Source: Brevibacillus laterosporus
Lineage (GTDB): Bacteria > Bacillota > Bacilli > Brevibacillales > Brevibacillaceae
Length of the DNA stretch: 64,000 nt
Assembly (NCBI GenBank): GCA_007833815.1
Contig: CP033464.1
Location: 2,055,501 to 2,119,500 of the forward strand
Direction of reading: 5' to 3'
The translations under genes were made by a program, and so were the position numbers. The notes under the pieces are model-generated. The model ran no database searches. It was given only the letters and a program-made list of their open reading frames with translations, and had not been told where the DNA came from. Below are positions 37,183 to 51,765 of the stretch, one piece after another. Position 1 is the first letter of the stretch; every line of letters starts with the position of its first letter.

Positions 37183-38466
37183 ATGATTGAAAGTTTAACT
37201 TCCCAAACAATCGGGGAACTGATAAGAGCTAAAAGAACAGAATTAGGCATCAGTTTATCAGAAGTATCCAGAGTGACTGGGGTTAGTAAGGGGGTTATTT
37301 CCAAAATAGAAAGTGGCGAGACCAAGCGTCCAGAGTTAAGGACTTTAAAACCAATGGCAGATTTTTTAGACATCCCTTACGAAGATATCATTGAACGCTA
37401 TATTGAGATGGAACAACGCATTGGTATTTTGGACGTTCTTTTATCAGAATCAATCGAAATTTCTAATCTTTCCTTAATTACTAAAGTGGCGAAAAAACTC
37501 CTCGAATCTCCTCACGAGGATACATATACATTATTAGAACATTTATATAAACTTGCGAACACTAACACAAATAAAGAAATCAGGCTAACATTTTACAATA
37601 TCATTATTTCGTACGCCAGAGTTCATGGAGTACCAATGTATATAGCTAAAGGGTTATATCAAAAATACCTCATCGAGAGAGAAGATTTGAAACGTTTGGA
37701 AGAATCGTTTAAAGTAGGAGAAGAATCTTTGCACTATATTGATTTTCTATCTGATGAAGAGAAAATCATTTTCTATTTTAGAATGACCTTACACGCTCAT
37801 AACATTAAAAAATATTCAGAGTGCATTGAGCTATGTAAAATGGGTCTTACAGAAGATACTACAAAAACCGAATTAAAGGCTAGAGCTTACTTAGCAATGA
37901 TTAACTCACTTTTATTTTTAGAAAGATATGATGAAGTAGAACATCATTTAGATATTTTTGAAGAGTACGAATATCGTTTTGTTTTGGACGCAACCAACAT
38001 AACTCGTGCCATTGTAAAAGCTAAAAAGAAGGATTTCGTTTTGGCAATTCCAATGTTAAGAGAGTGCTTAAAGGTGGTTAGTAAGGACCTTAAAATACAT
38101 GTGGCAAATGAATTACTTGATGTATTTTTTCAAACAATGGACATGGACTCAATTGCAGAATTGCTAACCTTAGAAGACGAATGTATGATTATTAATCCTC
38201 AAACACCTTACCAGCATATATCTATTGGAACGTTTTACCGACACAAAGGGAATTTTATGATGGAAACAGGTATCCCTGATCAGGGAAAGGAAAGCTATTT
38301 ACAAAGCTTACGTATTTATAGAAGGATTAATGCTTATCAAGAAATAACAGAGTGTATGAAAAATATTTTTGAATATTTCTCAAAAAATTTAATGTCAGTA
38401 GATATTGAGTATGTAAAAAGATTAAATGAGGTGTATAATGGTGCTGTGAGAAAAAAATGTAATTAA
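37183..38466 (+). CDS. RRNPP-type HTH-TPR peptide-sensing regulator, system 1
   Basis: A 427-residue cytoplasmic regulator. ATG behind GGAAGGGGATTCAT. Residues about 10-70 form an XRE helix-turn-helix (IGELIRAKRTELGISLSEVS, VSKGVISKIESGE). The rest is all-helical with degenerate TPR repeats (for example DTYTLLEHLYKLA, ELKARAYLAMINSLLFLERY, ESYLQSLRIYRRI). This plan is that of PlcR, NprR, PrgX and AimR, where the TPR groove binds a short secreted peptide that re-enters the cell. A 45-codon exported-peptide gene starts 14 bases after the stop, which strongly supports a receptor-signal pair. Target genes are unknown. Confidence 0.85.
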   Translation: MIESLTSQTIGELIRAKRTELGISLSEVSRVTGVSKGVISKIESGETKRPELRTLKPMADFLDIPYEDIIERYIEMEQRIGILDVLLSESIEISNLSLITKVAKKLLESPHEDTYTLLEHLYKLANTNTNKEIRLTFYNIIISYARVHGVPMYIAKGLYQKYLIEREDLKRLEESFKVGEESLHYIDFLSDEEKIIFYFRMTLHAHNIKKYSECIELCKMGLTEDTTKTELKARAYLAMINSLLFLERYDEVEHHLDIFEEYEYRFVLDATNITRAIVKAKKKDFVLAIPMLRECLKVVSKDLKIHVANELLDVFFQTMDMDSIAELLTLEDECMIINPQTPYQHISIGTFYRHKGNFMMETGIPDQGKESYLQSLRIYRRINAYQEITECMKNIFEYFSKNLMSVDIEYVKRLNEVYNGAVRKKCN

Positions 38467-38480
38467 AGGTGGAATGTGGA

Positions 38481-38618
38481 GTGAAAAAGGCTGCTGCTGC
38501 AACGCTATTATCCTTATCTTTACTTGTAACTATGAATTTGGTTCCTTTAAACAAAACAGCAAGCACTAACATTACTGCTCTGAAAATTTATCCAACTGTA
38601 GTTGATCCAGGCCATTAA
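38481..38618 (+). CDS. Secreted signal-peptide precursor (Phr/NprX-like), partner of regulator 1
   Basis: A 45-codon gene with a GTG start. AAAGGTGG is eight bases upstream. The product has two Lys, a hydrophobic export core (ATLLSLSLLVTMNLV), a likely cleavage zone near NKTAS, and a short tail ending IYPTVVDPGH. Precursors of RRNPP signals have this layout, with the active peptide cut from the C-terminus. It lies 14 bases after the regulator stop and is followed 19 bases later by a terminator, so regulator and peptide form a two-gene operon. The mature sequence is not known; YPTVVDPGH or a shorter C-terminal piece is a guess. Confidence 0.75.
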   Translation: MKKAAAATLLSLSLLVTMNLVPLNKTASTNITALKIYPTVVDPGH

Positions 38619-44767: not shown

Positions 44768-46087
44768 GTGTTTCGTTCCGAACTGGAATGGACGCGTGAG
44801 GAATTGCGCGATACGATCCGCAAGCATATGAAACAAAAAAGCTTGACGCAAGCGGAAACGGCCCAGCTGATTTCCATTGAAAGAAGCGGCTTTACCAAAG
44901 CAATTAATGGCAATCATTCGTTTACGCTGGAGAGCTTAGACAAATTGACTGTCGTGTTTGAATTGGAGGAAGGGGCCTTTTATCATCTGTTTTTTGGGGA
45001 ATGCATTGAACAGCGGCTCAAAAGTGTCCATTTGGTTTTTATTAAGGACAAATATGAAAAGTTCTTACGTCGTTGCCTTGAGGTTGGTAAATACGACATA
45101 GCCTTTCAACTATTAGAAATGTTGTTGGAGCAGGACGGTAAAAAACTGGATGTTATTTATACGATTGCTGAATCTATTTTTAAGCTAGCCGCGCTAAAAT
45201 ACCCTGGAGTCCCCACCTACAAAGAACCAGAATATCAGCAAGCTCTTTTTCTCTATAACTACTATGTAAATAATGAAGCTGACTATCATTCTGAGCAACT
45301 AGCCATATGCTATTTTCGAATCTTTTATATCATGCGATTCGATGTAAAAGAATCTTATGAAAAATTAGTTATGCTGTTATCCGTCATTAATCGATTGCCT
45401 TTACAAGAAAAAATAAAGGCGTATGATCGGGTAATGATGTATTTTTATATTGCAAGCGATTGGGACAAGGTCTTGCATTACGCCGATATCCTAGAGAAGC
45501 TAGCGAAGGGGCAGAACATCGACATTTATAATCACTGTCTGATGATTAAGAGTTTTGCTTTAAAGGAAACAGAGGACTATCAGGAGGCTATGCGTCTAAC
45601 AGATATGTACTCTAAATATAAACCCTTTCAAAATGTGGGATACGGAAACCGCATGATGATTGAGATTACTTCGGGTGATTTGCAAAATCTCCTTATTTAT
45701 GTGAGTTGGTTATCTCAGCAGGATCAGCGGGAATCAGGTCTGTCGATTGTGATAAGGAAGTTGCTAGATGCTGATAGAGCCTTGTTAGCACGCTATATTT
45801 TTGAAATGTTTGCTAAGCGCTTGGTTCCAGAAGAAAATATATTAATCAGCAAATACCGATTTAATCTTTTTCAGGTTGCCTCTCAGATGTATTTTGAATT
45901 AGCGTTGTATAAAGAGGGTATTGATCAAGTGTTACAAGCTATAAATAAAGCACTCTATCTCCACAAGCAACATGAATTAGGAGAATTGCTATACATGTTT
46001 GAAACGCATAGAATTCATGCAACTCAAGAACAACAACATCTCTATTGGAAATTGTTAAAAGGGTGGAAGGAGGGTGAATTCGCATGA
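44768..46087 (+). CDS. RRNPP-type HTH-TPR peptide-sensing regulator, system 2
   Basis: A 439-residue cytoplasmic regulator. GTG start with GGGGG seven bases upstream. Residues about 12-70 are an XRE-like helix-turn-helix (KSLTQAETAQLISIERSGFT, AINGNHSFTLESLDKL). The remainder is helical with TPR-like units (KYDIAFQLLEMLLEQDGKKL, DYQEAMRLTDMYSKYK, YKEGIDQVLQAINKAL), a plan shared with AimR and PlcR. Its final codons overlap the start of a secreted-peptide gene by four bases (ATGA). This overlap, as in many rap-phr pairs, makes a receptor-signal pair likely. It is not closely similar by eye to regulator 1, so the two systems are probably distinct. Confidence 0.85.
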   Translation: MFRSELEWTREELRDTIRKHMKQKSLTQAETAQLISIERSGFTKAINGNHSFTLESLDKLTVVFELEEGAFYHLFFGECIEQRLKSVHLVFIKDKYEKFLRRCLEVGKYDIAFQLLEMLLEQDGKKLDVIYTIAESIFKLAALKYPGVPTYKEPEYQQALFLYNYYVNNEADYHSEQLAICYFRIFYIMRFDVKESYEKLVMLLSVINRLPLQEKIKAYDRVMMYFYIASDWDKVLHYADILEKLAKGQNIDIYNHCLMIKSFALKETEDYQEAMRLTDMYSKYKPFQNVGYGNRMMIEITSGDLQNLLIYVSWLSQQDQRESGLSIVIRKLLDADRALLARYIFEMFAKRLVPEENILISKYRFNLFQVASQMYFELALYKEGIDQVLQAINKALYLHKQHELGELLYMFETHRIHATQEQQHLYWKLLKGWKEGEFA

Positions 46088-46281
46088 AAAAAGTGTGGAT
46101 CGTTATTGGAATGATAATGGTGATTGCTACTCCTACAGCAGCGCTGGCTGACAATGGTGCCAAACCGATTGATGTTTACTGCAATGGTACAGAGCAGGAT
46201 AACAACAGTGCAGGGCAGGAAAACAACGATACAGAAGAGGGAGGTATTTGTGATAACGGAGCCAGACCAACAAAGAAGTGA
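46084..46281 (+). CDS. Secreted signal-peptide precursor with duplicated DNGA(K/R)P, partner of regulator 2
   Basis: A 65-codon gene. AAGGAGGG lies nine bases before the ATG, inside the regulator gene, and the start overlaps the regulator stop (ATGA), implying translational coupling. A signal peptide (residues 1-22) ends ALA. The mature part begins DNGAKP (23-28) and the C-terminus has DNGARP (57-62) followed by TKK. Cys33 and Cys56 bracket an acidic, Asn/Gln-rich linker. Either repeat could be the signal; two copies in one precursor would be unusual for this class. The known family layout and position are the basis; the activity is inferred. Confidence 0.75.
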   Translation: MKKVWIVIGMIMVIATPTAALADNGAKPIDVYCNGTEQDNNSAGQENNDTEEGGICDNGARPTKK

Positions 46282-46293
46282 AAAAATAGGTAT

Positions 46294-46329
46294 AGCTGTT
46301 GCCCTTGAAACGGGGTGGCAGCTTTTTTC
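46294..46329 (+). terminator. Terminator of the regulator 2/peptide operon
   Basis: Imperfect stem AGCTGTTGCCC/GGGGTGGCAGCT followed by TTTTTTCTT. Confidence 0.75.
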
Positions 46330-46439
46330 TTCTTTCCTACGAAAAAGTGATAAAAAAATGGAAAACACCTGTAACTTATCACGTTACCTTATCATTAATA
46401 TAAAATTTGAAATTGCCAGAGAAAGGTTTGTGAGATAAG

Positions 46440-46655
46440 GTGAGTGGAATATTGAAGCATGCCCCTCCCATCAAAGATATGGTCATCACATTGCAACAGC
46501 AGTTGGTTGCTCTTGTCCAAGAGAAAGGTAGTTTTTCACATCCAATGGTTGTAGCTCTAAGTAAAGAGCTAGATGAATATGTTGTTCAACTACAGAGTCA
46601 ACGCTTTCAACAATATAAGAAACGCAGACAAATGGATGAGAGAGAACACGGTTGA
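46440..46655 (+). CDS. Spo0E-like sporulation aspartyl-phosphate phosphatase
   Basis: A 71-residue protein. The GTG start has only a weak ribosome site; the start is therefore uncertain. The family pattern is present: VITLQQQLVALVQEKGSF, then VVALSKELDEYVVQLQ, where SKELD matches the S-x-E-L-D signature of Spo0E. These small helical hairpins dephosphorylate Spo0A-P and delay sporulation. It follows the second peptide-sensing operon after a terminator, so it may be a target of that system; this is inference. Confidence 0.75.
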   Translation: MSGILKHAPPIKDMVITLQQQLVALVQEKGSFSHPMVVALSKELDEYVVQLQSQRFQQYKKRRQMDEREHG

Positions 46656-51534: not shown

Positions 51535-51765
51535 ATGTCATGTTGCAGACGCAGAAGACGCAGACACAGAAATAGAGTCAGTAACAGAGATGTCCGTCGA
51601 GCAAGAAGAAACATCCGTAGAGCTAAACGTTTCTTAAATCGAGCTCTTCGTGATTTGAGAAGAAGAAGACGCCACAGAGACCACGAGAGAGACCACGACA
51701 GAGAATGCAGAAGAAGAAGAAGACGTCGCTGCAGAAGTATCCGTCGCTTCAAAAGTATCTGCTAA
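51535..51765 (+). CDS. Arg-rich, protamine-like small protein, spore type
   Basis: A 76-residue protein in which 36 residues are Arg. ATG after AGAGGTGATCAATC. It begins MSCC, then RRRRRRHRNR, an amphipathic middle (RRAKRFLNRALRDL), an Asp/His/Arg block (HRDHERDHDR) and a second Arg run flanked by Cys (ECRRRRRRRCRS). Composition and Cys suggest binding to nucleic acid or to acidic coat or cortex polymers. Similar Arg/Cys-rich proteins are known from spores of Bacillales; the exact role is unknown. Codons alternate AGA and CGC, which argues against a simple repeat artefact. Confidence 0.7.
   Translation: MSCCRRRRRRHRNRVSNRDVRRARRNIRRAKRFLNRALRDLRRRRRHRDHERDHDRECRRRRRRRCRSIRRFKSIC

Follow-up and report, generated by a model that had tools for sequence, protein, structure and literature searches.

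We analysed a 64,000-nucleotide stretch of Brevibacillus laterosporus DNA (hereafter the window), in which an RRNPP-type receptor gene is directly followed by a gene for a small, secreted-looking protein with two near-identical hexapeptides and then by a gene for a Spo0E-like phosphatase. The features of the locus are as follows.

44768..46087, + strand: gene for an RRNPP-type receptor (HTH and TPR-like) of 439 aa, starting with GTG, placed in a sister clade of AloR
46084..46281, + strand: gene for the putative secreted two-copy pheromone precursor, ATG start, 65 aa
46084..46149, + strand: signal peptide ending in AALA, predicted cleavage A22/D23, assigned by eye from the sequence
46150..46167, + strand: hexamer copy 1, DNGAKP, residues 23–28, at the predicted mature N-terminus
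46168..46251, + strand: linker, N/E/T-rich, ending in Cys56, variable in sequence and length
46252..46269, + strand: hexamer copy 2, DNGARP, residues 57–62, followed by TKK
46294..46323, + strand: terminator-like hairpin and T run 3' of the precursor gene, on a weak basis
46371..46387, + strand: inverted repeat GTAAC-7-GTTAC, a putative operator or promoter element that precedes the Spo0E-like gene
46440..46655, + strand: Spo0E-like aspartyl-phosphate phosphatase gene, 71 aa (PF09388), a possible output gene

The receptor and precursor reading frames overlap by 4 bp (ATGA), and a GGAGG lies upstream of the precursor frame. Inspection of the sequence and its open reading frames confirmed the layout given by an earlier sequence-only reading, with the four-base overlap, DNGAKP at residues 23–28 right after AALA, and DNGARP at residues 57–62; Cys33 and Cys56 are also where that reading had placed them. 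The window holds a second RRNPP-like pair at 37183–38618, consisting of a 427-aa HTH_3 regulator and, 2 bases further on, a secreted-looking ORF of 49 aa with VVDPGH at its end. This small ORF resembles that of a pair on pBRLA33 of B. laterosporus LMG 15441 (L223, ending in DYDPGY). At 51535–51765, a 76-aa ORF, very rich in Arg and with Cys and His, may be spurious or encode a basic structural protein.

At 439 aa, the receptor lies within the size range of RRNPP receptors (250–500 aa with an N-terminal HTH), and its HTH matches, which fall below the Pfam cut-offs, cover residues 9–66. A Pfam search of the window receptor for TPRs returned no match; among 47 aligned family members, HTH_3 was found in 29 and TPR_2 in 10. 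Searched against the PDB, the receptor-family profile matched general HTH chains and general TPR chains, and no RRNPP receptor was named among the best 60 matches shown for each profile search. The window receptor aligns with an AloR13-type receptor (24% over 471 columns, E = 3e-24). Its Asn294 is at least 90% conserved; in RRNPP receptors an Asn of this kind anchors the backbone of the peptide. The adjacent precursor is 65 aa long, within the 10–100 aa of Sec-exported RRNPP precursors, and its export features (a hydrophobic N-terminus and an AxA site) were recognised by eye. The homology to AloR-AloP, the order of the genes and the conservation of the hexamers all agree with the earlier proposal of an RRNPP-like receptor with a secreted peptide, and from such comparisons the assignment of the two genes as an RRNPP signalling pair is well supported.

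A search of six genomes of the same genus located the pair in the source genome and in three of the five others, with receptors 95% identical. Neither hexamer varies at any of its six residues across the four orthologous precursors, the window's included; synonymous codon changes number three in copy 1 and one in copy 2, and the linker has 13 amino-acid-variable and 12 gapped positions among 39 columns. All four have K in the first copy and R in the second. At the DNA level the two copies differ from each other at 5–6 of 18 bases, yet in the protein only by K/R, a sign that the duplication is probably of long standing and that selection on the protein maintains it. Copy 2 is followed by TKK in the window precursor and by K in the three orthologues. 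None of Pfam, NCBIfam and PHROGs gives a match to the precursor above cut-off. Each of the four precursors contains two Cys residues, of which the one before copy 2 is fixed and the first moves (33 or 48), and, as judged by eye, Cys is absent downstream of the signal peptide from the other printed multi-copy precursors of the receptor family. The sequence-only reading had counted the Cys pair as an element of the format; the shift of the first Cys rules it out as a conserved part.

Homologues of the small protein far from any regulator and lacking conserved DNGA(K/R)P would have put that reading in difficulty. The four good homologues in the six genomes (E = 2e-14 or better) all adjoin a receptor; two further matches, both in genome G002, have E above 1. 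Its other test, on related regulators lacking any secreted ORF, did not refute it either: a candidate precursor adjoins 150 of 203 related receptors, and 53 of 203 are without one by our filters. Among the AloR-like receptors without a recognised downstream secreted ORF, those at L008, L010 and L027 may be orphan receptors.

At E 1e-20 the receptor profile matched 27 of the 40 genomes of the family; for the class, 65 of the 399 genomes matched at E 1e-25. We analysed 174 non-redundant receptors, which later loci raised to 203, and filtered candidate precursors by ribosome-binding motif, hydrophobicity and length. Profile matches were sampled in part, 14 matches of further searches were taken in (H4–H9, H11, H15, H17–H19, H23, H27, H33), and loci L185–L199 and L221–L228 were added for their receptors, not their precursors. 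L192 and L196 failed the precursor filter and were admitted for containing DIGGGW. Receptors shorter than 370 aa were left out of the trees, and L120 also out of the IQ-TREE tree.

The C-terminal hexamer was repeated at 5/6 or better in 10 of 124 distinct candidate precursors against 0.05 expected from 300 shuffles, and at 4/6 in none against 1.67 from shuffles, in a test that considered the C-terminal hexamer only, allowed up to three trailing residues and set no Gly condition. FastTree divided 168 receptors into a large clade of 133 rows, mainly with xHGxGG-like signals, and a smaller clade of 35 rows with the window receptor; with the 203-receptor set, the window clade comprises 48 rows (support 100) and the large clade 155. 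In the window clade, 38 of the 48 receptors have a candidate precursor and 10 have none. With the count confined to repeated hexamers that have Gly at position 3, and with near-identical orthologues kept as separate rows (four of the window's, two of L002/L003), 19 of these 38 precursors are multi-copy, with two to five copies (17 of 36 without the motif-admitted L192 and L196). The large clade has candidate precursors in 112 of its 155 rows, a single one of which is multi-copy (L153). Shuffles predict 0.24 multi-copy precursors in 150; these counts and the 10 in 124 above rule out a chance origin of the repeat.

The published AloP13 signal is SHGRGG, with Gly at position 3 (PMC7425212). All four receptors found beside the SHGRGG pattern (L229–L232; precursor printed for L232) sit in the other, large clade, which rules out the window receptor as AloR proper; because of this placement, and because it shares 24% with one such receptor, it is better described as Alo-related. 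In the IQ-TREE tree of 55 rows, the window's four orthologues, L002, L003 and L046 form one group in which all precursors are two-copy (SH-aLRT 99). The closest relatives of the window's lineage have the same layout with other hexamers (DAGERP twice, SSGDRG twice). The fewest changes of the trait are five in the FastTree tree of 168 receptors, four of them forced by well-supported branches, and seven in the IQ-TREE tree, six of them forced. These five or seven changes, in which gains and losses are not told apart, do not show a single origin of multi-copy precursors. The trees carry a long-branch warning, and owing to long branches the placement of L026, L046, L048, L153 and others is unsure.

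Gly occupies position −4, that is, position 3 of a six-residue unit, in 73 of 87 distinct precursor tails. The tails of the window precursor and of the orthologous precursors belong to the 14 without it, because TKK or K follows copy 2; DNGAKP and DNGARP themselves have Gly at position 3, as in the AloP-type six-residue unit. His precedes the Gly in 44 of the 87 tails and in neither form of DNGA(K/R)P. The source genome holds 14 matches to the receptor, fragments included. Its near-identical paralogues L002 and L003 (G000:C4, about 4.46 and 4.12 Mb), with a precursor carrying DAGERP right after ASA and again at the stop, probably arose by recent duplication.

In eight two-copy lineages (the window group, L002/L003, L046, L048, L026, L076, L187 and L189), copy 1 directly follows AxA or VxA, as judged by eye; one of these lineages is on a phage and two are on plasmids. 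The L048 precursor is identical to that on plasmid NZ_CP085877.1, L187 is on B. borstelensis plasmid NZ_CP150492.1, and L189 is gp60–gp61 of Brevibacillus phage Emery (KC595516.1), a sister-clade receptor with HGGIGW twice (the repeat was computed one residue off, as AHGGIG/FHGGIG, and is HGGIGW twice when read from the sequence). In six other lineages compared with the window's, the two copies are identical in protein. There are two exceptions to the layout. In L153, copy 1 is set back by about nine residues. In one Paenibacillaceae genus (L191–L197, L199), two to five tandem hexamers of the DIGSGW type were counted and no AxA is clear; a single copy is present in L198 of this genus. The residue after copy 1 is I, V, A or K (G in L153), and that before copy 2 is C, M, L, N or Y (F in L187 and L189), which would fit the preferences of neutral and subtilisin-like proteases.

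Two phages provide further observations. An AgrB-family gene, gp55, lies near gp60–gp61 in phage Emery and makes the region a candidate phage communication system; one scan of viral contigs yielded no relative of the Emery receptor. Phage SecTim467 (KT151957.1, L221) has an AloR-like receptor with an annotated Spo0E gene just upstream.

The Spo0E-like gene of the window (PF09388, 32.5 bits over a cut-off of 23) begins 158 bases after the precursor gene, with the hairpin at 46294–46323 between them; evidence for the hairpin is weak because two such sites were found against 1.5 expected from shuffles. A Spo0E-like gene is present at all four orthologous loci, and the GTAAC-7-GTTAC repeat is identical in all four, inside a conserved block upstream of that gene. 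More widely, a regular expression detected a Spo0E-like ORF downstream of 47 of 174 receptors, and among the 11 repeat-bearing rows checked such a neighbour occurs at the window's four orthologues only. An element shared upstream of the receptor and spo0E genes, GAAAACACCT, was considered as an operator and ruled out, as it is not kept upstream of the receptor in any of the three orthologues. In the Alo13 operon of Paenibacillus polymyxa, GFP replacing the Spo0E ORF reported AloR13 activity, according to a figure legend in PMC7425212. By analogy with that operon, and from the neighbourhood and the conserved upstream block, the Spo0E-like gene suggests sporulation timing as the output.

The genes, their layout and conservation, the clade and the hexamer register lead us to propose a scheme for processing, import, binding and targets. 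The precursor would be exported by Sec, and signal peptidase I would cut after AALA to free the N-terminus of DNGAKP. Extracellular proteases, with S8 and neutral proteases as candidates, would then make one cut after copy 1 and one before copy 2. Since TKK or K follows the second hexamer, copy 2 needs trimming, and the terminal Lys residues (of TKK, or the K of the orthologues) would be removed from it. An oligopeptide permease would bring both hexapeptides back into the cell, where they would occupy the putative TPR groove of the receptor. The receptor would then bind DNA differently, at its own operon and perhaps also at the downstream Spo0E-like gene, so that the phosphorelay and the timing of sporulation would follow cell density. 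The source genome has 7 S8 protease and 11 SBP_bac_5 matches, a complement that is permissive only. Several observations speak against the scheme: the residues trailing copy 2, the lack of a Pfam TPR match in the window receptor, the hairpin between the precursor and spo0E genes, the restriction of Spo0E-like neighbours to the window's four orthologues among the 11 repeat-bearing rows, and the 10 clade receptors with no candidate precursor. We consider it probable that the pair is an RRNPP peptide quorum-sensing system in the sister clade of AloR-AloP, that both hexamers are signals and that the whole mechanism operates as proposed. As a tentative extension, which we regard as possible and no better, the sister clade may be a separate RRNPP subfamily carried on chromosomes, plasmids and a Brevibacillus phage, in which two-copy precursors place one copy against the signal-peptidase cut and the other at the stop codon or near it, so that few further cuts would be needed for each; in the window's lineage the fixed K/R difference would then turn the two ends into ligands of graded strength for a single receptor, which would set the timing of sporulation by way of Spo0E.

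Other roles for the two copies were weighed against this proposal. The K/R difference, fixed in the orthologues, fits a reading in which the copies are different messages, giving two ligands that differ in affinity or kinetics and act on one or two receptors. A fourfold difference in affinity between the two similar Phr3T copies (PMC11343458) and paralogous receptors in the source genome with the similar predicted ligand DAGERP point the same way; but the K/R change is conservative and the copies are protein-identical in all six other lineages compared, and we find two messages a doubtful prospect. Should one copy alone work, the other would be a duplication relic or a spacer that presents the signal-peptidase site. 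One copy evidently suffices elsewhere, because 19 of the 38 clade precursors are single-copy, as many as are multi-copy. This reading is nonetheless unlikely in view of the invariance of both copies in the four orthologues despite the 3 + 1 synonymous codons and the 13 changed linker residues, the identity of the copies in six other lineages, and the activity of both Phr3T copies described in PMC11343458.

The two Cys residues in every orthologous precursor and the overlap with the regulator gene might instead indicate a disulfide-bridged secreted peptide, for example an antimicrobial, that is controlled by its neighbour and is not a signal. The mobile first Cys, the other printed multi-copy precursors without Cys after the signal peptide, the concentration of conservation in the hexamers, and the lack of any Pfam, NCBIfam or PHROGs match above cut-off make this very improbable. 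The reading of both hexamers as quorum-sensing signals remains the one we favour. With it, the sister clade supplies natural replicates in which the hexamer changes and the end-to-end layout stays, and what each copy and the signal-peptidase cut contribute is therefore open to direct tests. For Brevibacillus and phage Emery the candidate hexapeptides can be named: DNGAKP, DNGARP, DAGERP, SSGDRG, EDGPGW, NVGEHG, DIGERG, DIGERP and HGGIGW.

AloR-AloP, Spo0E neighbours and hexapeptide signals have been described in P. polymyxa (PMC7425212); the passages of that paper on repeats and duplication make no mention of repeated signals inside one precursor. Our search of the open-access journal literature gave no paper on multi-copy precursors in the Alo group among the matches listed. 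The recurrence of double precursors in the AloR sister clade is thus undescribed in the literature searched, and the receptor family is poorly studied. AloR and a novel candidate RRNPP cluster of Paenibacillaceae, cluster 8, are listed in PMC10075063; the pair at 37183–38618 is possibly that cluster, and it may be closer to cluster 8 than the pair at 44768–46281 is. The latter resembles AloR-AloP (PMC7425212) in its homologous receptor, the precursor immediately downstream, the Sec signal peptide, the six-residue unit with Gly at position 3 and, in part of the systems, a Spo0E-like neighbour. It differs in that its receptor belongs to the sister clade, its precursor is two-copy, and no His precedes the Gly.

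Two near-identical motifs, which the sequence-only reading took for a new format, turn out to have precedent. Passages of PMC5199041 and PMC9765709 describe several pheromone copies per precursor in Rap, NprR, PlcR and AimR systems; the window precursor is like these multi-copy Phr, NprX, PapR and AimP precursors in having more than one copy; those passages do not treat AloR. The maturation of multi-copy precursors is called a fascinating mystery in PMC9765709 and has been studied for two phage Rap systems in PMC11343458. One of them is Phr3T of phage phi3T, in which, according to that paper, an internal hexamer begins where signal peptidase cuts and is separated by 14 residues from a hexamer at the C-terminus (its figure of 24 residues after the cut is not quite consistent with hexamers plus 14 residues); both copies are matured by extracellular proteases and act. 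The window precursor shares this layout: its two hexapeptides are near-identical, signal peptidase is predicted to expose the first, and a spacer leads to the second towards the C-terminus. It differs from Rap3T-Phr3T in that Rap is without an HTH (PMC9765709), hexamer and spacer are unrelated, and a short tail follows copy 2. There is thus precedent both for two copies and for placing them end to end, and what the literature searched does not describe is their recurrence across the Alo sister group.
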